Below, in pieces: positions 3,822-50,562 of a stretch of DNA of 64,000 bases. The notes below the pieces were generated by a model. That model made no database searches and was not told the origin of the DNA. It saw only the letters and a list, made by a program, of their open reading frames with translations. Source of the stretch: an uncultured Oligoflexia bacterium. Lineage in GTDB: Bacteria; Bdellovibrionota; Bacteriovoracia; Bacteriovoracales; Bacteriovoracaceae. Each line of letters begins with the position of its first letter. Positions within the stretch are counted from its first letter, which is position 1. The stretch is from assembly GCA_913058265.1 (NCBI GenBank), contig CAJXPQ010000004.1, positions 124,001-188,000 on the forward strand, written 5' to 3'. The translations under genes and the position numbers were made by a program.

Positions 3822-4775
3822 ATGGGTGTTTATTCTGAGGTTGATCTCACTGAAATTAATGAAATCTTAAGCCACTATGAATTAGGGTATGCTGTAGACT
3901 ATCAAGCTACTATTGCTGGTATATCTAACTCTAACTACAGATTGAATCTTAATACTGGTCAGTCGATACTACTTAAGGTTTCAAATGATAAAACAGTTGA
4001 ACAATTAGTAAATGAACAAAATATCTTATTAAAATTAAAAAAATATAACTATCCTTTCTCATTAAATCCGTTTGAGACTATTCAGGGAAAGCCAATCTAT
4101 CAGCACAATGGCTTGCACGGAGTGGTATTTCCTTTTATTGATGGGCTTCCACCGGTCATTGATAGTACGACAATTAAGCAAATTGGCATGGCATTAGGTA
4201 AGCTTCACTCGCTTGAGATACATAAAGAAGACTTGGATACCATTAGGCCTCATGATTTAGTTGGTTACGGCGGTATGAATGTTTATGACTATGCCTATTC
4301 AAAAGATGCAGCTCCAATGTTTAAAGAGTATTTTGAAAAATTGATTCCTGAAAACTTAAAAGACATACCCTATGAACTTTTTCCTGCTGGAATTATTCAT
4401 GGTGATCTATACTTTGATAACTCTCTTTTTAATAATGGTGATTTAGTCACACTTATTGATTTTGAACAGGCCGGAAGGGGACGTTTTATACTTGATCTCG
4501 GAATTGCTATTAGTGGAAGCTGTCTAAATTCAGATAGATCTAATATAGATCAAAATTTAATGAAAGCCTTTTTAGCCGGATATGAAAATGAAAGAGCGAT
4601 GAAAGTGATTGAGAAGGATTACCTTGATCTTGCAATTAAGATTGGATTTTTTTCTATATCACTTTGGAGAATTAAAAGGTTCTATGATGGAAGTCTTGAT
4701 GAATCAAAGAGAGATAACTACATAGAGCTTTTAAAACGGGCCGAATCTTTCTCCGCTATCTGTATGGATACTTGA
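3822..4775 (+). CDS. thrB: homoserine kinase, type II (aminoglycoside-phosphotransferase fold)
   Basis: This enzyme would phosphorylate L-homoserine with ATP in threonine synthesis. The 317-residue protein starts MGVYSEV and continues with a GISNSNYRL strand, both typical of the APH-like ThrB family. The kinase catalytic core is intact: IIHGDLYFDNSLF (H-G-D-x-x-x-x-N) near residue 190 and the metal-binding LIDFEQAG near 212. Length matches the family. No clear Shine-Dalgarno sequence precedes the ATG, but it follows the upstream gene by only 19 bases and may be co-transcribed. Another small-molecule APH kinase is possible but less likely. Confidence 0.8.
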   Translation: MGVYSEVDLTEINEILSHYELGYAVDYQATIAGISNSNYRLNLNTGQSILLKVSNDKTVEQLVNEQNILLKLKKYNYPFSLNPFETIQGKPIYQHNGLHGVVFPFIDGLPPVIDSTTIKQIGMALGKLHSLEIHKEDLDTIRPHDLVGYGGMNVYDYAYSKDAAPMFKEYFEKLIPENLKDIPYELFPAGIIHGDLYFDNSLFNNGDLVTLIDFEQAGRGRFILDLGIAISGSCLNSDRSNIDQNLMKAFLAGYENERAMKVIEKDYLDLAIKIGFFSISLWRIKRFYDGSLDESKRDNYIELLKRAESFSAICMDT

Positions 4776-4797
4776 TTCTGGTCGTCGGTTGATAGCG

Positions 4798-4826
4798 TTG
4801 GATAAGTAATGTTGTATGATTATATT
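4798..4826 (+). promoter_or_regulatory. candidate promoter of the bL25 gene
   Basis: TTGGAT (4798-4803) and TATATT (4821-4826) are separated by 17 bases, about 75 bases before the bL25 start. The match is moderate. Confidence 0.35.
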
Positions 4827-4900
4827 GTGCCGCGAATTGAGAAAATCACTTATAGGTGGTTTTATTAAACATAAATAAACTAACGAACAAAGGACAGTTG

Positions 4901-5545
4901 ATGGGATCATTATCAAGTGAAAATAGAGAACTAGGTTTTTCTAAAGGACAAATGAATAAATTTAGAAAGCAAGGAAGAATTCCTGCTGTTGTATTTGGTA
5001 AAAATAGAGATCAGTCATGGCCTATTTTTGTTAACTGGGTAGCTTTTCAGAAATGTCTAAGCTCAGAAGGAAAAGTTTTTCAATTAGAAGTTAATGGCAA
5101 AGTAGAACTTGTAAATGCTAAGGTCGTTGATCTAACTCCAATGGGAAAACCAGAGCATATTTCTTTTCACCAATTGGTTAGAGGTGAAGCATCTGTATTT
5201 AAGGTGCCGGTTAACCTTGTCGGTGAATCTGTAGGTGAGAAGGCTGGTGGTGTTATTCAAGCTGTTGAATCACAGATTTCTGTAAAAGGGATGCCAAAAA
5301 ATATTCCAGAGAATATCGAGTTAGATATTAGCTCTCTTGAAATTGGGCAAAACTTAACCGCAGGCGATTTAAAGCTTCCTACTGGTCTTGAGCTTGCTCA
5401 AGAGACGGATCTTAATCTAGTTGTATGTCAAGCACCTAAGCAAGAAGAGGCTGAAGAAGAAGTCGCTCTCGCTCCTGAAGGTGAAGCTCTAGAAGCACCG
5501 GTTGCTGAGGCCCCTGCTGAAGCTCCAGCTGAAGAGAAAAAATAA
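4901..5545 (+). CDS. rplY: 50S ribosomal protein bL25 (Ctc form)
   Basis: bL25 binds 5S rRNA in the large ribosomal subunit. The N-terminal domain has the expected layout (GQMNKFRKQGRIPAVVFGKN), and the C-terminal beta domain marks the long CTC form. The chosen ATG (214 residues) has AAAGGAC 6 bases upstream and gives the expected N-terminus; the open frame could extend to a GTG at 4856 but that region has no family match. The last 30 residues are an Ala/Glu/Pro-rich tail, common in this family. A strong terminator follows directly. Confidence 0.93.
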   Translation: MGSLSSENRELGFSKGQMNKFRKQGRIPAVVFGKNRDQSWPIFVNWVAFQKCLSSEGKVFQLEVNGKVELVNAKVVDLTPMGKPEHISFHQLVRGEASVFKVPVNLVGESVGEKAGGVIQAVESQISVKGMPKNIPENIELDISSLEIGQNLTAGDLKLPTGLELAQETDLNLVVCQAPKQEEAEEEVALAPEGEALEAPVAEAPAEAPAEEKK

Positions 5546-5570
5546 TATATTAATTATTAGAAATTAAAGA

Positions 5571-5598
5571 AGCCGCTCTGTATTGAGCGGCTTTTTTA
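5571..5598 (+). terminator. rho-independent terminator after bL25
   Basis: AGCCGCTC and GAGCGGCT form an 8-bp stem with a 6-base loop, followed by a run of T. It ends the bL25 transcript. Confidence 0.9.
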
Positions 5599-5623
5599 TA
5601 TTTAAACTACAGAATTTCTCAGG

Positions 5624-5629
5624 TAAAAT
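5624..5629 (+). promoter_or_regulatory. -10-like hexamer for a possible leaderless transcript
   Basis: TAAAAT lies 5 bases before the ATG at 5635. No ribosome binding site is at usable distance. Confidence 0.3.
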
Positions 5630-5634
5630 GTATT

Positions 5635-6786
5635 ATGCCTGCAATAATTTTCATTCCCATTATCACTGCCACTATAATCTCTATTTTCATTGTCCTTCTG
5701 TATGTGAGGTATAGGAAAAAAAACAAGTTTTTACTGCAGGATCAAACAGGCCTTATTCCCGCAAATGCTAGTTATGAATTTCTAGACGCTAAAGAAGATA
5801 AGAGCGTTTTTAAAAGTTATAATACTCCTTTGACAGAAACATTACAGCGTCACGATGTAAGTAGTATCTATCTAATCCACGGAACATTTGTGGGTAATGA
5901 TCCTTTTCAAATAATTGATTTATTGGGGGAAGCATTTCCAAAACTTGGCACTAAGCTCATTTCAACAATTAAAGAAAGGACAAAGCAGACTCAAAATATC
6001 TTTGCAAAGGATTTAGGCAACTTTACTGACGAACACGTTGACTATATTAGAACTATGACTGGAAACAGATTTAATGTTCACAATATCACATGGTCTTCTG
6101 GTAATAATCATCTCGCCAGGGTGAAGGGAGCGATAGATCTTATCCAAAAGCTCTCAACAGAAAGTCCAAATAGTAGGGTTCTGCTGATAGGTCATAGTCA
6201 CGCAGGACAACTTTTTGCACTCATTACACAATTGATGAATAACCCAGCTTTAGAAAAAAAACTAAAGACCATAACAAAAAAGATCATTCCTGACAGTGAC
6301 TGGAAAGATATCAATAAGCAAATAAAAAAAATGAGAACTCTTAAATTCGATATTGTCACAATGGGGACACCACAGAGATATGAATGGAGACTCAGTGATA
6401 ATATTAAGCTTCTGCACTTCATTAATCATAGAGGAACGAGTGTATTTGGAGGTGATGTAAAAGGCGCATTAAATACACTCGATGGAGACTATATCCAACA
6501 GTGGGGAATTGTTGGATCGGATATCGTTTCGCCGCTTAAGGAAGAAAAGCTTATTAATATTGAACTAGATTCAATCTTTGGAGCAGGTAGTAATTTGGAG
6601 GAACTAAGGAAGAATATTGTTTTTCGTAAGAGATTGCATTCTGAGGGACATCATATTCTTGTGAACTACCGAGATAATGCAAAATACCCAAACTTTCTTT
6701 TAACAATATTTGGGCATGGCAGTTATACTAAATTTGGATATTTAGGTTTTCACTTTGAAGAAATCTGTAAAAGGCTTTATAAATGA
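5635..6786 (+). CDS. membrane-anchored alpha/beta hydrolase-like protein
   Basis: The protein has 383 residues. Residues 2-25 form one membrane segment followed by a basic stretch (RYRKK), suggesting an N-terminal anchor. The hydrolase signature is the nucleophile elbow LLIGHSHAGQL near residue 185, with a preceding IYLIHGTFVG strand that would supply the oxyanion region. A late HSEGHHILVNY segment may hold the catalytic His. The substrate (lipid, ester or other) is unknown. Its last 4 bases overlap murI (ATGA type), so it is coupled to a peptidoglycan precursor gene. Confidence 0.65.
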   Translation: MPAIIFIPIITATIISIFIVLLYVRYRKKNKFLLQDQTGLIPANASYEFLDAKEDKSVFKSYNTPLTETLQRHDVSSIYLIHGTFVGNDPFQIIDLLGEAFPKLGTKLISTIKERTKQTQNIFAKDLGNFTDEHVDYIRTMTGNRFNVHNITWSSGNNHLARVKGAIDLIQKLSTESPNSRVLLIGHSHAGQLFALITQLMNNPALEKKLKTITKKIIPDSDWKDINKQIKKMRTLKFDIVTMGTPQRYEWRLSDNIKLLHFINHRGTSVFGGDVKGALNTLDGDYIQQWGIVGSDIVSPLKEEKLINIELDSIFGAGSNLEELRKNIVFRKRLHSEGHHILVNYRDNAKYPNFLLTIFGHGSYTKFGYLGFHFEEICKRLYK

Positions 6787-7544
6787 AGAAGGTAGGATTA
6801 ATTGACTCAGGGATTGGCGGATTAACTCTTTTAAAGGAACTGATGGACTATAAGGTTCACGCGGAGTATCTCTATATCTCCGATTCTCAAAATGTTCCTT
6901 ACGGTGAAAAATCACAAACATTTATGCTTAATCAAGTAAGAGATATGTCTTTAAAGTTAATTGCCAAGAAAGTTGAAGTGATTATTCTCGCATGTAATAC
7001 CCTTACGGCCGAGACTATTGATACTTTAAGACTAGAGCTTACAGTCCCTATTGTAGGGCTAGAGCCATATATTAATTATTTAAATCAAGACTTTGCTATT
7101 GATTCCAAAATGGCACTGATATTGACGGAAGCAACTTTCAAGTCTACTCGTTTTCAGACTCTACTCATTGAAAAAGACCCTGAACATAAAATTGATATTT
7201 ACCCTTTAAAGAAACTTGCCATGATTCTGGAATCCTTAACAATTCAGGACTTCGAAACCATAAGAGTCGAAGTAGAACGTGAACTCATGCAGGTTGAGGG
7301 GCGAGGCTATACCCATCTTATCTTAGGCTGTACCCACTATCCAATCATCAAAAATTTTTTAGAGAGTTATTTGGGGCTTATTGTTGTTGATTCAGCTGCA
7401 GCTGTTAGAAATCATGTAATGAATAGCGTAGGGCTAAATACCACTGATGAGTATCATGATACTTTCTTATATAATTCTGATAACTCAGATACTTGGTTAA
7501 GCTCAAAGCTATCAGAGCTTAAATTTTTAAGAGATATTGTTTAA
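6783..7544 (+). CDS. murI: glutamate racemase
   Basis: MurI converts L- to D-glutamate for peptidoglycan stem peptides. The 253-residue protein keeps the family hallmarks: GLIDSGIGGLT at the N-terminus, VPYGEKS, the first catalytic Cys in ILACNTLTAET near residue 73, and the second in LGCTHYP near residue 181. Length is normal. It overlaps the hydrolase gene by 4 bases at its start. Its 3' end overlaps the convergent helical-repeat gene by 18 bases. Confidence 0.95.
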   Translation: MKKVGLIDSGIGGLTLLKELMDYKVHAEYLYISDSQNVPYGEKSQTFMLNQVRDMSLKLIAKKVEVIILACNTLTAETIDTLRLELTVPIVGLEPYINYLNQDFAIDSKMALILTEATFKSTRFQTLLIEKDPEHKIDIYPLKKLAMILESLTIQDFETIRVEVERELMQVEGRGYTHLILGCTHYPIIKNFLESYLGLIVVDSAAAVRNHVMNSVGLNTTDEYHDTFLYNSDNSDTWLSSKLSELKFLRDIV

Positions 7545-8489
7545 GTTTGTAATAATACTCTTTAGGTTGTCGATCATAGCTTGATCAAGTGGTTGAATCT
7601 CTCTTTCATTCTCTCTTAGCGCCCTAGACATAATGCCACCAAACATAAAGAAGACAACATCAACCATGAGAGTTGCTTCTTTTGCAGTGTCCGAGGCTGG
7701 ATTTCTTGTTTCAACTTTAAAACAATTACTAAGTTCTTTGATCGTTTCCTCACTGTATGATCTTTTCATTATTTTTTGAATCGCCGTGTTTGCATTAACT
7801 CTAACTGTTTGGCTTGAATGGTTTAAAAGGTCTAGTAAAAGAAGTATGTCTTCTTTAGATCCGTGTCTTGCGAAGTACTTTGTGATCCCTGTTTTTTTCT
7901 CAAGACTCTGATCTAGAATAAGTTCTCTTATATAATCTAGATGTTGAGGTGATCTAGAGAGAGCAAATCCTGAGACAATATATTCTTTTGTTTTAATTGT
8001 CGTCGCATCTGCTTTATATAATTCTTTTAATCCATTAGAAACTTTTTTGTTATCTTCTACAAAGTTACCTAACTTCATTATCGCCATATGCTGAGATCTA
8101 TATGAAGGAGATTTTGCAAGTGTAAATAAAAAATCGATCATTTTGTCTGAAGGATCATCAGTTATATCCGAGTTGATCGTTGGAGAGATCCATCTTTTTG
8201 GAGCTTTCTTTAGTAATTCTATGACAAGCTCATCATTTCTTGTTTGAACATGAATGATTTCAGTCAGACTGCTAAATGTTTCTCTATCTTGAGTTTTTTT
8301 AGCTTCGACTATTAGCCTATTTAGTAGGGTGTTATCAGAGGCTTGCTTTAATTCTTTTGACAGTTGCTTTTCAGCATCAATCCTTTCTCCAGTATCTCTA
8401 CTCGATAGATTTTTAATGGTTTGATTGGTATCAATTGCAAAAGCTGTGATTAGATTTAAACTTAATGTCATTAAAATGATAAACTTCAT
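7527..8489 (-). CDS. secreted helical-repeat (HEAT-like) protein
   Basis: The product of about 320 residues begins MKFIILMTLSLNLITAFA, a signal peptide. The chosen ATG is preceded by GGAGAG; an ATG four codons upstream overlaps that site. The mature part is alpha-helical with recurring short helix pairs (for example ILLLLDLLNHSSQTVRVNAN), in the style of HEAT or armadillo repeats, suggesting a periplasmic binding scaffold. No enzyme motif is seen. Its 3' end overlaps the convergent murI gene by 18 bases. Function is unknown. Confidence 0.65.
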   Translation of the reverse strand: MKFIILMTLSLNLITAFAIDTNQTIKNLSSRDTGERIDAEKQLSKELKQASDNTLLNRLIVEAKKTQDRETFSSLTEIIHVQTRNDELVIELLKKAPKRWISPTINSDITDDPSDKMIDFLFTLAKSPSYRSQHMAIMKLGNFVEDNKKVSNGLKELYKADATTIKTKEYIVSGFALSRSPQHLDYIRELILDQSLEKKTGITKYFARHGSKEDILLLLDLLNHSSQTVRVNANTAIQKIMKRSYSEETIKELSNCFKVETRNPASDTAKEATLMVDVVFFMFGGIMSRALRENEREIQPLDQAMIDNLKSIITNLNNIS

Positions 8490-8519
8490 CTCTCTCTCCA
8501 TTTATACGCATTTATTTTT

Positions 8520-10133
8520 TTAGTATGTCCACTCTCTTAATTGCCCTTGCTCCCCTTGATGTGATCCTATTCCAAGGTGCATTTTTCCATTTCCTTTGCC
8601 ATCACCATGACCAAGTCCAATAGAAAAACCTAGGTCGGATGATTCTAGCGGGTAACGAATATCAAAAATATCGTTTTCCCAAATATTATTTTGAGCATAG
8701 CTTTTATAGTATTCAAAAGAATCATGGCCAGCAAAGACAACATCAAATGCAGCAGCATGAATATGATCACTTTTCGTGTTACCAGTAAGTTTCTTTTGGT
8801 AACAGGCACTACGCCACCAACTTGTAATATATCGGAACTCTTGAAAGCTTCCGAGTAAAAAACCTAACTGATTTTGCTTGTTTAAATCTTTCGTCATTTG
8901 TTCAAATATTAAAGATAAAACAATTGCCTTCGGCCATAGATTTTGAGGCGGAACAAGTGCTTTTAAATCTTCAGGGTCATGACAGGCTAAAAACTTTGCT
9001 GTATTACTTCTTCCTGGAACTAAAAAGTTATAGGTCTTATCAACAATATTTTTATGAGTAATTCCTGAAAGTGTCAGGTACCTTACAAAATCGTACTTAG
9101 AGCGATCAAATTTAGTTGGGTCAATAAAGTTTCCGCCTAGTTTATATATAAGGGTACCATTTGTGTAACAGTATTCAGTGTCCTTTAGACCTTCATGGCA
9201 GGGTGCAAAGAGCTTTTTGTTGATATCATTTACAATATCTTTTGACCCATTAACCCTAGAGTCTTTAAGCTTTGATTCTATAGCAATAAGCTCTAGACGA
9301 GTCGTAAGAACTTCATCTTTTATTTGAGCTATTTCATCACGAAAACTTTCAAGTGTTATATCTTCGTAAACAGCGACTACCGGTTTGCTCTTACTTTCTT
9401 TAAGTTGCTCTAGGTCAGATTCGAATTGAATTCTTTTGGCAGTAACCATCTCTAGGGATCTAAGCATTGATTCCTGTGTTACTTTTATTCTTGATACTTC
9501 ATTCTGTATGAGTGCTTGAATATCTGTCGTTATCTCATTATTACTATCTGCTAACATTTTAGTGAATTTTTCATTCCAGGCAGCAATGGCAGCATCAACG
9601 TATTTTTTATATTTATCTTTATTTTTTTGGTAAAGAGCGAGGTGAGACTCGAACTTTACTCTCAATTTTTTTGCAGATTCAACGGTCTGAGCCTGCTCTA
9701 ATTGAATTTGTAGCATATCTGATTTAAGAGCAAAGTTATCATTTAGATTCTTAACAACTAATTGTAAACTTGATACTTTGACATAATTAGTTAGTTCTTC
9801 ATCTATATAGGCTTTGTATTTATTGAAGTTATCATCAAGCTCTATATAATGATCATCTAGCTTAGAATCTAGCTGAGACATAAGTTGTTCTAGCTCAGAT
9901 CTTAGTTGAGCTAATTCTTGCTTGGTTGCATATTGAGCTTGCTCTGTTGGAGCAACGCTAGTATCGGCTTCAACTTCTTTTATCTTCTCGCTTTTTTGCT
10001 TAACTTCAATTTCGAGTGTTTTTATTGCTAACTTTTTGTCTTGCGGAGCTTTACTGTCTGAGTCTTGCTCTTTCTTAACTCCACAAGCGATAGCAATAGT
10101 TAGTACAAATAAATACATTAAAGACATTTTCAT
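8520..10133 (-). CDS. coiled-coil lipoprotein with C-terminal M15-like peptidase domain
   Basis: The protein has about 537 residues. The start at 10133 gives MKMSLMYLFVLTIAIAC-G, a lipoprotein signal with lipobox IAIAC. Residues 30-300 are charged and form long coiled coils. The last 160 residues contain WWRSACYQKK, then SDHIHAAAFDVVF (H-x-x-x-A-x-D, near residue 460) and a late MHLGIG (near 519). This resembles the S-x-H-x-x-G-x-A-x-D ... H zinc site of M15-type D-Ala-D-Ala or L,D carboxypeptidases. The Gly before Ala is replaced by Ala, so activity is not certain. Acting on murein across the periplasm is the most likely role. Confidence 0.65.
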   Translation of the reverse strand: MKMSLMYLFVLTIAIACGVKKEQDSDSKAPQDKKLAIKTLEIEVKQKSEKIKEVEADTSVAPTEQAQYATKQELAQLRSELEQLMSQLDSKLDDHYIELDDNFNKYKAYIDEELTNYVKVSSLQLVVKNLNDNFALKSDMLQIQLEQAQTVESAKKLRVKFESHLALYQKNKDKYKKYVDAAIAAWNEKFTKMLADSNNEITTDIQALIQNEVSRIKVTQESMLRSLEMVTAKRIQFESDLEQLKESKSKPVVAVYEDITLESFRDEIAQIKDEVLTTRLELIAIESKLKDSRVNGSKDIVNDINKKLFAPCHEGLKDTEYCYTNGTLIYKLGGNFIDPTKFDRSKYDFVRYLTLSGITHKNIVDKTYNFLVPGRSNTAKFLACHDPEDLKALVPPQNLWPKAIVLSLIFEQMTKDLNKQNQLGFLLGSFQEFRYITSWWRSACYQKKLTGNTKSDHIHAAAFDVVFAGHDSFEYYKSYAQNNIWENDIFDIRYPLESSDLGFSIGLGHGDGKGNGKMHLGIGSHQGEQGQLREWTY

Positions 10134-47370: not shown

Positions 47371-47526
47371 TTATTTCCTGCCGGCCCTCTTCATCATCTC
47401 AATAGCTATGTCAAAGTCATTGCCATCTGGGTCATACTTCCTTCTTAATCTTTTAAACCAACTTGGAACTTCTGGGTGAAAACCAGAAACAATAACTTTA
47501 CCTTTACCAAAAATCCATTTACAGCA
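47371..47526 (-). pseudogene. 3' remnant of a glutamine-amidotransferase-like (BPL_N) gene
   Basis: The minus strand reads through about 48 coding-quality codons, including FGKGKVIVSGFHPEVPSWF then RRKYDPDGNDFDIAIEMMKR, and ends at TAA (47371-47373). The pattern of a G-x-G strand then S-G-x-H-P-E is the C-terminal part of class-I amidotransferase-like BPL_N proteins. A TAG at 47527-47529 lies directly upstream and no start exists, so the 5' part of the gene is missing. On the other strand the next gene's frame begins inside this stretch, so a rearrangement probably joined two truncated genes here. Confidence 0.65.
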
Positions 47527-48429
47527 CTATTTAATCAACATCTTAACTATGTAGATAATCAACTGTCACAGGTATTAAAGCTAAGCCGGAAGTTAGTTTC
47601 AGCTCGAGTAAAATTAGATGTGCTCTTATCAAAATATGATTCGATTGTTAAGGAAACTAAGAAAGAAAAGACTCTTAAAAAGATTGAGAAACAGAAAAAA
47701 ATTATATCTAAACTTACTAACGATTCTAATATCGCATTTAAGAAAAGAGCTAGGCATGCTGAGCTCTCAAAACATACTTATGCTCTCGCAGGACAAGAAT
47801 CCGCAATGAAGTTAGCAAGAATTAAAAACAAAAACTGGCTTTCTCTTGATCAGTCAGTTAAAAAATCAATCGATCTCGGAAGTAATATTGAGGACAAGAA
47901 GGAGTTTTCAATTAGTTTTTGGTTCCGAACTGATCTTTCTCAAAATGATAAAAGAATTTTAAACTCAGGTTATAAAGGGTCTATGAGCTCTTTGATTGTA
48001 GGTCTTAAGAGTGAAAAAGTATTTTTTGGCTATAGGGACTCAGAAGAAAAATATATAACTCAAGATTATGAATTAAATTATTCGACTAATGAATGGCAAA
48101 ATTTTATTGTTACCTATAATCAGAGCAAGTTCGAGATTTATATAAATGGAGAGCTTAGAGATAGTATAGAAGATGGTTTCGTTGGACTAAATGAAGAACC
48201 TAGTTATTTAGGTTCTTACCAGTTTAGAAGCCATCATTATCTTGGTGATATCGATGAACTCTCTCTCTGGAAAACAGCTCTATCGCCGGACTCTGCCCAG
48301 GACATTTATAATGATGGAGTGCCTTCAAACTTAGTTCTTCACTCTGAACATGCTAATATCGTAAAGTGGTGGAGGATGGGAGATAAAATTAAGCGAAGTA
48401 TCGCTGGTTCTCTTATCGATCATGAGTAA
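47476..48429 (+). CDS. LamG/concanavalin-like domain protein, possibly 5'-truncated
   Basis: The open frame encodes 317 residues from a GTG at 47476. Residues 18-100 form a charged coiled coil and residues 115-290 a LamG-type domain (EFSISFWFRTDL, WQNFIVTYN, FEIYINGELRD, YLGDIDELSLWKTALS). LamG domains bind sugars or proteins outside cells, yet no signal peptide is visible. The first 15 codons lie over the reverse-strand gene remnant, so the original 5' end has probably been lost. No ribosome binding site supports the GTG. Confidence 0.6.
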   Translation: MKTRNNNFTFTKNPFTALFNQHLNYVDNQLSQVLKLSRKLVSARVKLDVLLSKYDSIVKETKKEKTLKKIEKQKKIISKLTNDSNIAFKKRARHAELSKHTYALAGQESAMKLARIKNKNWLSLDQSVKKSIDLGSNIEDKKEFSISFWFRTDLSQNDKRILNSGYKGSMSSLIVGLKSEKVFFGYRDSEEKYITQDYELNYSTNEWQNFIVTYNQSKFEIYINGELRDSIEDGFVGLNEEPSYLGSYQFRSHHYLGDIDELSLWKTALSPDSAQDIYNDGVPSNLVLHSEHANIVKWWRMGDKIKRSIAGSLIDHE

Positions 48430-48524: not shown

Positions 48525-48541
48525 TTTTCTAGGGAGAATTT

Positions 48542-50146
48542 ATGACTAAATCAGTGAGAGTAGTATTAGATCAAAGCGGTATATCCATGGTTCAGGTCAT
48601 GATTTCGGTTGGCTTAATGGGAGTTATTTCACTTGGAATGCTTAGGATGAATGAAAATCAACAGAAAGCTTCAAATACTGTAAGCCAAAACTTTGAAGCT
48701 GTTCAAATTATGACCCAAGTTGAAGGTGTACTAAGAAATAAAGAAGGTTGTTTTAAAAGCTTTGGTGCTGGAACCATGAACTTGAAGAGTGATTTTACTC
48801 AAATCATAGATAGAAACGATAGGGTGATAATTAAAAAAGGTGAGACCTACAGTGGTATGGGAGCCGGCAGTAAAATTAAAGTGGAGAGTATTGGCTTTCA
48901 AATGGATGGCCCCAATGTCATGTTGGAAGATACTTCAGCTCCTTTTATGTACAAGGGAGCCTTAGCAGTGACCAGTACTGCTAATATTAAAATTACATTA
49001 GATAGAACTGTTAACTCCTCGGATCCAGGTACATCAAATAGTTACGGTGGAAGAAAGGTAAATAAAATCCTAAAGGGTTTTAGAGTCGTTACGAGAACAA
49101 ACACAGATGGAAATATTATTGGCTGTCATGCACCTGTGGATATGTATGTCGAGGCAGCTTGTTCTGCCTTGGGTGGAACGATTAGTGCATTAGATGGCAA
49201 ATGTAATGATCTTCATATAGATCAAATCTCTGTTTCAGGAAATGCTGATGTCACTGGTCAAATTGGCGGGGGGAGTATCAAATCAAATACTACTGTCGTT
49301 GTTCCAAGAGTAGGGACTGATGGTAATAATGGTGCATTTAAAATTACTGGTTGTGGTGGTATTTCTCAAGGGGCAGGTCCTGGAGGAGTAAATGGGATGA
49401 AAATGAGCTCAGAAGGAGCTTGTCCTAAAACATTCCTACATGCAGGAAATACGAAAAACTCTGCTTATGATAATTTTTCTTTGTCAGGTTATTTATTTAT
49501 TATGTCTGGTGAGATTCGTTTTGGCGTTGACGGTGGAGGTGCAACTATCACTGGAGATCCTTCATCTGGAACACTGACTTACTCAGCTGCAGGATTAAGT
49601 CGACATGTTTTTGATAAAGGGGATGTTCAAATCGAGAATAAATTATCAGTTGCAATGACCTCAGAATTTAAGGGGCAGGTCGATATGACAAATAATAATA
49701 TTACGGGAGTTAATCAATTAAAAGTTAATAACGTTGTCGGTACTGGTAACCTAAGTGGCTTTAGTGCTATCTCTGGCATCGGTACTATCCAGGCATCTGG
49801 AACGATAACAGCTTCAGATATTAGATTAAAGAAAAATTTTGTTGAAATTGATTCTGCTCTTGATAAGGTCTCTCAGCTTGGTGGATATATCTTCGATTGG
49901 ATCGATGAAGACAGTGCTAAGCAGATGGGGACGCAAGTAGGTGTAAAGGCGCAGGAAGTACAAAAAGTGTTTCCAGAGCTAGTTAAGGTGGGAGAGAGTG
50001 GTTACCTCTTTGTAAACTACCAAGGACTAGTTGCGCCACTTATAGAGGCGGTAAAAGAGCAGAAAGAGTTATTTGATAAGCAACAACTTGAACTGAATGA
50101 ATTAAAGAAACAAGTTCAATTACTCATTGATAGTAAAAAAGAATAA
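48542..50146 (+). CDS. pilin-like protein with C-terminal S74 chaperone/autoprotease domain
   Basis: The protein has 534 residues. Residues 10-30 (DQSGISMVQVMISVGLMGV) look like a type IV prepilin leader: Gly before the cut, then a hydrophobic helix, with Gln instead of Glu at position 5. The middle is beta-rich and Gly/Thr-rich. The last 120 residues hold SDIRLKKNF, GGYIFDWIDEDS, QEVQKVFPELV and LIEAVKEQKEL, the features of the peptidase S74 intramolecular chaperone of phage tail fibres, which trimerises and cleaves itself off. This would be a surface fibre with pilin-type membrane export. GGGAGAA precedes the ATG. Confidence 0.83.
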   Translation: MTKSVRVVLDQSGISMVQVMISVGLMGVISLGMLRMNENQQKASNTVSQNFEAVQIMTQVEGVLRNKEGCFKSFGAGTMNLKSDFTQIIDRNDRVIIKKGETYSGMGAGSKIKVESIGFQMDGPNVMLEDTSAPFMYKGALAVTSTANIKITLDRTVNSSDPGTSNSYGGRKVNKILKGFRVVTRTNTDGNIIGCHAPVDMYVEAACSALGGTISALDGKCNDLHIDQISVSGNADVTGQIGGGSIKSNTTVVVPRVGTDGNNGAFKITGCGGISQGAGPGGVNGMKMSSEGACPKTFLHAGNTKNSAYDNFSLSGYLFIMSGEIRFGVDGGGATITGDPSSGTLTYSAAGLSRHVFDKGDVQIENKLSVAMTSEFKGQVDMTNNNITGVNQLKVNNVVGTGNLSGFSAISGIGTIQASGTITASDIRLKKNFVEIDSALDKVSQLGGYIFDWIDEDSAKQMGTQVGVKAQEVQKVFPELVKVGESGYLFVNYQGLVAPLIEAVKEQKELFDKQQLELNELKKQVQLLIDSKKE

Positions 50147-50157
50147 GGGATATACTT

Positions 50158-50562
50158 TTGAAAAGCTTTATTTTCATTCTAACATTTTTTTCAAGTTCTT
50201 TAGTTTATGCAACCTGCTCTCCTTCGTGTGATTCAGATACACAAAGATGTAGTGGCTCCACGGAGTTTTTAGGGTGTTCTAATCGGCCTGTACCAGCTCC
50301 TAACCTCAAAGCTTTTAATCAGTTGCCTCTAGCTGGTTTTACCATACCTGGTGTTGCTGGTAGACCTGGTCGATATTCATGTACTGGCTTCGCTTCAAAA
50401 GCTGCTGTGAGTGTGCCCACGATAAATAAACTCCCTCACACATTCAATTATCACGGACTCCAAATTACAGTAAATAGTATGAGGTTTGGTGGAAGAAGTT
50501 TTGGTAGTTTTACTGAGAATTATGCTCGAACAAGAACGGTCTATGCTTGTGTTTCAAAGTAA
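50158..50562 (+). CDS. small secreted Cys-rich protein
   Basis: The product of 134 residues starts at TTG with AGGGA eight bases upstream. A signal peptide (KSFIFILTFFSSSLVYA) is followed by a Cys-rich front (TCSPSCDSDTQRC, later GCSN, YSC and ACVSK) and a Pro/Gly-rich middle. No known domain is recognised; disulfide bonds are likely outside the cell. It follows the S74 fibre gene by 11 bases and may be co-expressed with it. Confidence 0.68.
   Translation: MKSFIFILTFFSSSLVYATCSPSCDSDTQRCSGSTEFLGCSNRPVPAPNLKAFNQLPLAGFTIPGVAGRPGRYSCTGFASKAAVSVPTINKLPHTFNYHGLQITVNSMRFGGRSFGSFTENYARTRTVYACVSK

Follow-up and report, generated by a model that had tools for sequence, protein, structure and literature searches.

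The gene at positions 48542–50146 (+) of the window, a stretch of 64,000 nucleotides from the genome of an uncultured Oligoflexia bacterium of the family Bacteriovoracaceae, whose wider group is noted for its predators, raises the question of what a protein might do that begins as a type IV prepilin and ends in an S74 self-cleaving chaperone of the kind found on phage tail fibres. The reading frame is intact (534 aa plus stop), and a Shine–Dalgarno-like AGGGAG can be read in the sequence at 48531–48536 (+). Its two modules, its family and its intact catalytic residues, all apparent from sequence, suggest that, on balance, the product is a modular minor type IV pilin whose trimeric fibre, matured by S74, would be presented on a type IV filament, probably at the tip. 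An initial annotation of the window had spoken of surface fibres; a fibre-bearing minor pilin describes the proposed molecule better.

The N-terminus indeed displays a class III (prepilin) signal, MTKSVRVVLDQSG, followed by ISMVQVMISVGLMGVISLGM. The leader comprises 13 residues (48542–48580, +), including Lys3 and Arg6, and ends in Gly13, after which a cut is predicted from the sequence itself, from the invariance of this glycine and from a pattern test. The mature protein begins ISMVQVMIS, with an uncharged, mostly hydrophobic run after ISMVQ. Mature position 5 is Gln and not Glu, as had been noticed initially; Glu is usual at this position of type IV pilins, but not universal. Amongst the 60 ORFs of the window that reach 120 aa, a fixed prepilin pattern fits just that of the S74 protein, and a chance match was rejected on this count, although the pattern is imperfect: it also picked out an ordinary signal peptide in L235 and overlooked two prepilin-type starts (L231 and L041). 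The window protein has no match to Pfam N_methyl (E up to 1), nor to the NCBIfam pilin models, including NF007848, and no AXA-like site follows its hydrophobic stretch.

Beyond the leader, residues 14–230 (48581–49231, +) constitute a putative pilin module, with a long N-terminal helix and a cysteine pair (Cys70/Cys195). A putative fibre stretch comes next (residues 231–424; 49232–49813, +), which shows weak shaft matches and ends at the predicted S74 cut. The assignment of the C-terminal end to S74 holds, with a Pfam Peptidase_S74 match over residues 425–482 (49814–49987, +) that scores 62.2 bits (cut-off 22; E=5.6e-17). SDxxxK, the motif of S74 (PMC10769870), is intact as Ser425, Asp426 and Lys430 (SDIRLK), so that both catalytic residues, Ser425 and Lys430, are present, and self-cleavage is predicted just before Ser425. 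The chaperone closes with a long helix, probably a coiled coil (residues 493–533; 50018–50140, +), modelled at pLDDT >95.

Structural predictions are uneven. The AlphaFold2 model of the whole protein, built from 34 aligned rows, has a mean pLDDT of 54.8; most of the S74 domain exceeds 90, and the remainder, including residues 231–424, is poor. A helix is predicted over residues 16–65, mostly at pLDDT 70–85, and this corresponds to the length typical of the alpha1 helix of type IV pilins (~50 residues). Residues 1–235 modelled separately reached a mean of 40.3, and the beta part of the pilin module is unreliable in both models. With Foldseek, the S74 model retrieved the MyRF ICA (7dc3, E 2.1e-5) and the K1F intramolecular chaperone (3gw6, E 9.2e-4). 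Similarly, a profile of 20 proteins of the same family aligned, over its C-terminal part, with the solved S74 proteins 6f45 (E 2.7e-25), 8jov, MyRF 7dc3 and 3gud, and, over its first 66–76 positions, with a Geobacter pilin (7tgg, E 0.0014) and the toxin co-regulated pilin (8uhf, E 0.011).

A survey for such fusions, as suggested in the initial annotation, brought up numerous relatives. S74 matches occur in 37 of 59 genomes of the same family, 94 altogether; the 91 lying outside the window genome were all retrieved and their reading frames read. Prepilin-type proteins account for 32 of the 94 frames, in 18 genomes, 31 being recognised by pattern and one (L041) by eye, with nine frames that lack a 5′ end counted as non-prepilin. 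The window genome (3.23 Mb, 99.6% complete) holds three S74 matches, all of prepilin type, the other two being at C1:262 kb (Gln5) and C6:47 kb (Glu5). The remaining S74 proteins fall into Sec or lipoprotein fibres, the longest with 2,545 aa, and a set of 13 frames shorter than 175 aa. Residues 1–230 of the window protein match 27 of the 31 other prepilin-type S74 proteins and none of the 62 others (E<=1), and residues 201–430 give weak matches to the shafts of both S74 classes. These shared residues, together with the prepilin signals of relatives, led to the rejection of an ordinary signal peptide, in favour of the prepilin start first proposed.

Alignment of 20 of the 32 proteins reveals Gly13, Cys195, Ser425 and Lys430 to be invariant, and Cys70 nearly so. 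Pilin models that find nothing in the window protein do recognise these relatives: Pfam N_methyl matches 11 of the 20, NCBIfam NF007848 ('prepilin peptidase-dependent protein') 13 and TIGR02532 seven (each at E<=0.1). The catalytic Ser and Lys are kept in all 32 proteins, and the full SDxxxK in 30 (in L068 and L123, Ser replaces Asp). At mature position 5, 22 of the proteins have Glu, seven Gln, two Met and one Gly; the Gln5 seen in the window protein is therefore recurrent, and a missing Glu5 is not a family rule.

Cysteines before the S74 domain are even in number and non-zero in all 32 prepilin-type proteins (counted upstream of the S74 start, with L070 included after a recount before S74). 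Even numbers are found in 34 of 52 other window ORFs and in 37 of 40 Sec-type S74 proteins, 29 of these non-zero, and 12 of 13 short S74 frames have no cysteine before S74. Even cysteines fit export to an oxidising compartment and are not specific to the prepilin class; because Sec-type S74 proteins are mostly even too, parity supports export, and not pilin status. Whether the fusion had a single origin was addressed with an S74 tree, on which switching between prepilin and other labels takes 17 steps; only two of these are forced by well-supported branches, and long branches meet. As a separate observation, the short S74 frames include a class of ~145–170 aa in which a common 'LDVFAGSD' precedes the S74 motif and no signal peptide is visible (L035, L038, L045, L046, L049, L054, L055, L060, L062, L066, L067 and L069); this class looks cytoplasmic and is absent from the window genome.

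Within the prepilin-type family, similarity is unevenly distributed along the chain. For the four closest pairs, identity falls from 63–93% over the first 60 aa to 52–83% up to residue 230 and 46–72% in the middle, reaching 34–45% in the last 45 residues ahead of the cleavage Ser, with S74 itself at 33–48%. In seven of the 11 pairs compared, this stretch ahead of the Ser is the segment with the lowest similarity. In the MAT fibre proteins of Bdellovibrio bacteriovorus (S74 subgroup), the exposed tip sits just before S74 once S74 is shed (PMC10769870, in the portion concerned). At the sequence level, divergence rises from the pilin end towards the predicted tip.

Gene contexts were read in 16 stretches, with neighbours named by eye. 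Prepilin-S74 genes appear singly, in pairs or in an array, with no other prepilin gene nearby in these 16 contexts, save one in L265. A seat by recA-like and recX-like genes is common to L251, L261 and L264. L265 contains a divergent pair (4741–6243, −; 6529–8634, +) with near-identical prepilin starts, in which the S74 motif is found, by pattern, only in the second gene; the two are perhaps tip-swapped relatives. The largest array, L252 (1874–17998, −), consists of six consecutive prepilin-S74 genes on one strand, encoding 866–912 aa, arranged as a three-gene cassette in two tandem copies (L108-L098-L110 and L117-L100-L104). Identity is 47–50% between partners across copies and 27–33% for other pairs. 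Genes within a cassette touch or overlap by <=11 bp, 134 bp separates the cassettes, and none of the encoded proteins has Glu5 (Gln or Met). A search of 38 other genomes with a cassette member gave no match at E<=1e-20, and the L252 host genome is only 66% complete. After the six S74 genes, and overlapping, lies a gene for a secreted-looking protein (L252 3–1910).

The window gene is not within a pilus operon. Just 5′ of it, at 47476–48429 (+), is a gene for a Laminin_G_3 protein (Pfam E 7.6e-18) with no visible signal peptide. On its 3′ side, after 11 bp, a small ORF with a TTG start encodes a secreted-looking, cysteine-containing product (50158–50562, +), a candidate that could be a TcpF/CofJ-like partner of the S74 protein. 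Amongst 58 other genomes it drew two matches (E 0.04–0.06), neither of them a convincing homologue, and, being almost without homologues, was rejected as a conserved partner. A comparable small secreted ORF adjoins the S74 gene of L263, with no sequence similarity to that of the window.

With regard to distribution beyond the family, genome contigs were scanned with the pattern AQEV[QE]x[VI]xPE, and the frame was readable at 78 of the best 80 loci listed. Titles reading Bacteriovorax, Bdellovibrio, Bdellovibrionaceae, Bacteriovoracaceae and Oligoflexia are taken by us to denote the phylum Bdellovibrionota. Amongst these best loci, four of the eight with such titles are prepilin-type and none of the 70 others, frames without a 5′ end numbering one of the eight and eight of the 70; Fisher's test on the complete frames of the best loci listed gives p=4e-5. 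Amongst the loci sampled, a restriction of prepilin-S74 proteins to Bdellovibrionota is therefore supported, whilst the titles of many other loci point to Bacteroidota and lineage effects may lie behind it. S74 occurs in 82 of 144 genomes from other families of the phylum. A hand-picked sample of these (20 stretches with shorter frames, 23 frames read) contains six prepilin-type proteins by eye (L230, L231, L236, L238, L243 and L247), the start of L238 being identical to that of L150, on a contig that equals L150's in length. Another of these families provides four small tandem S74 genes with ordinary signal peptides on one short contig (L235).

How such a protein might work can be proposed by analogy with known families, as regards leader processing, trimerisation and S74 cleavage. 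The leader would insert the subunit into the inner membrane, and prepilin peptidase would cut after Gly13. In the periplasm, three subunits would trimerise via their C-terminal stretch, guided by the S74 chaperone, and the folded trimer would allow S74 to cut before Ser425, shedding the last 110 residues to leave a fibre with an exposed end. Shedding ahead of the secretin may act as a quality gate. The alpha1 helices would then carry the subunits into a type IV filament; given a bulky fibre and a window protein that lacks Glu5, a place at or near the tip is most plausible. Less securely, the exposed end may bind a ligand, possibly on prey, to which the phylum points, as do, by analogy, the Kil tips of Myxococcus. 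Against the minor pilin interpretation count the window protein's missing N_methyl and NCBIfam pilin matches, its Gln5, the unreliable models of its globular pilin part and the lack of a pilus operon around its gene, and also that a threefold S74 trimer must fit a helical, non-threefold filament. This last clash would be eased by a heterotrimeric tip formed from the three cassette genes without Glu5. Such a trio belongs to a bolder proposal, which we offer tentatively and think rather doubtful as a whole: that Bdellovibrionota possess type IV filaments with phage-tail-fibre-like tips, made of S74 trimers whose self-cleavage licenses secretin passage and whose fast-changing ends serve prey choice, the L252 trio being one heterotrimeric example.

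Other fates for the protein were considered. The prepilin-like start might merely tether an S74 fibre in the inner membrane, with no filament assembly; such a start would be hydrophobic and helical whatever its function, the residue at position 5 is variable and the genes are scattered outside pilus operons. A simple anchor requires, however, neither the Gly before the cut that is invariant in 20 of 20 aligned proteins nor the Glu5 of 22 of 32, and a fibre retained at the inner membrane would be unable to extend beyond the cell, making this unlikely. In keeping with the minor pilin interpretation, the window genome has two Peptidase_A24 matches (prepilin peptidase genes), along with N_methyl pilins and PilB/PilT-like ATPases, and N_methyl pilins lie close to T2SSE-type ATPases at C6:87-96 kb; a search for PilY1 found no match here, nor in control genomes, and so carries no weight either way. 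T2SSE ATPases also adjoin N_methyl pilins at C3:174-178 kb, as would suit a pseudopilin, joining a type II secretion pseudopilus or other periplasmic type IV filament, with a role in secretion and a fibre that is not outside. Minor pseudopilins that are large and lack Glu5 have been described, GspK being one (PMC5207764, in the part concerned), and two of the 20 aligned relatives weakly match GspJ-type models. S74 fibres are nevertheless described, in the relevant part of PMC10769870, as external and ligand-binding, and multicopy families, arrays and divergent ends fit adhesins better than a core secretion part, such that we regard a pseudopilin as improbable. Finally, an exported fibre of the MAT kind, whose Sec signal peptide merely resembles a prepilin signal, could be imagined from the signal peptide, fibre and S74 of B. 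bacteriovorus MATs (PMC10769870, relevant portion) and from the one normal signal peptide flagged by our pattern, but is very improbable given the 0/62 matches of residues 1–230 to Sec- or lipoprotein-type S74 proteins, the missing AXA-like site, a modelled helix extending to residue 65 and the unmistakable prepilin signals in many relatives.

Several known systems come close to the proposed one. Fusion of a prepilin start to S74 is already in print, in that Raynaud et al. listed in 2021, amongst modular type IV pilins, the architecture IPR012902-IPR030392 (prepilin motif and S74), which likewise places a prepilin N-terminus and an S74 module within one protein (PMC8179133). There it is a database count, read as a 'predicted peptidase', and the section in question gives no family, trimer or link to Bdellovibrionota. 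No other publication on S74 or an intramolecular chaperone combined with a pilin was recognised in a search conducted mostly outside subscription journals and preprints. The present work adds the existence of a family in Bdellovibrionota, its divergent tips and gene cassettes, and the interpretation of its intact self-cleavage site in terms of a trimer chaperone. MATs share the phylum, the SDxxxK S74 and a fibre before S74, and for the B. bacteriovorus protein Bd3182 self-cleavage at the same Ser has been published (PMC10769870, in the part concerned). At their N-terminus, MATs are there described as having a signal peptide plus a conserved domain of ~130 aa that is rich in beta structure, as opposed to a prepilin leader and pilin-like module, a distinction from the published proteins that is one of description, as the 0/62 test employed S74 proteins of the family set.

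TcpB and CofB, the trimeric tip minor pilins of type IVb pili, similarly join a pilin module to a long C-terminal extension, form a tip trimer and have a secreted-protein gene adjacent (PMC5207764, PMC9565799). They differ, by description only, in bearing Glu5, and the portions of those papers concerned report no S74 chaperone or self-cleavage. Pilus tip complexes are capped by a subunit without Glu5, according to the relevant section of PMC10191384. A further parallel comes from the Kil Tip complexes of Myxococcus xanthus, which have exchangeable large minor pilins with variable distal domains and are used in predation, but are Tad-type complexes of several minor pilins, with S74 unmentioned in the main text (PMC12075869, in part).

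Pili and S74 fibres have each been implicated in the recognition of varied prey by predatory bacteria. Prepilin-S74 proteins unite the two in one polypeptide, and form a sizeable family that is confined to Bdellovibrionota in our sample. If the proposed working is correct, a self-processing, chaperone-assisted step would be added to the routes of pilin maturation, and the pili of these bacteria may end in gripping fibres that resemble those of viruses.
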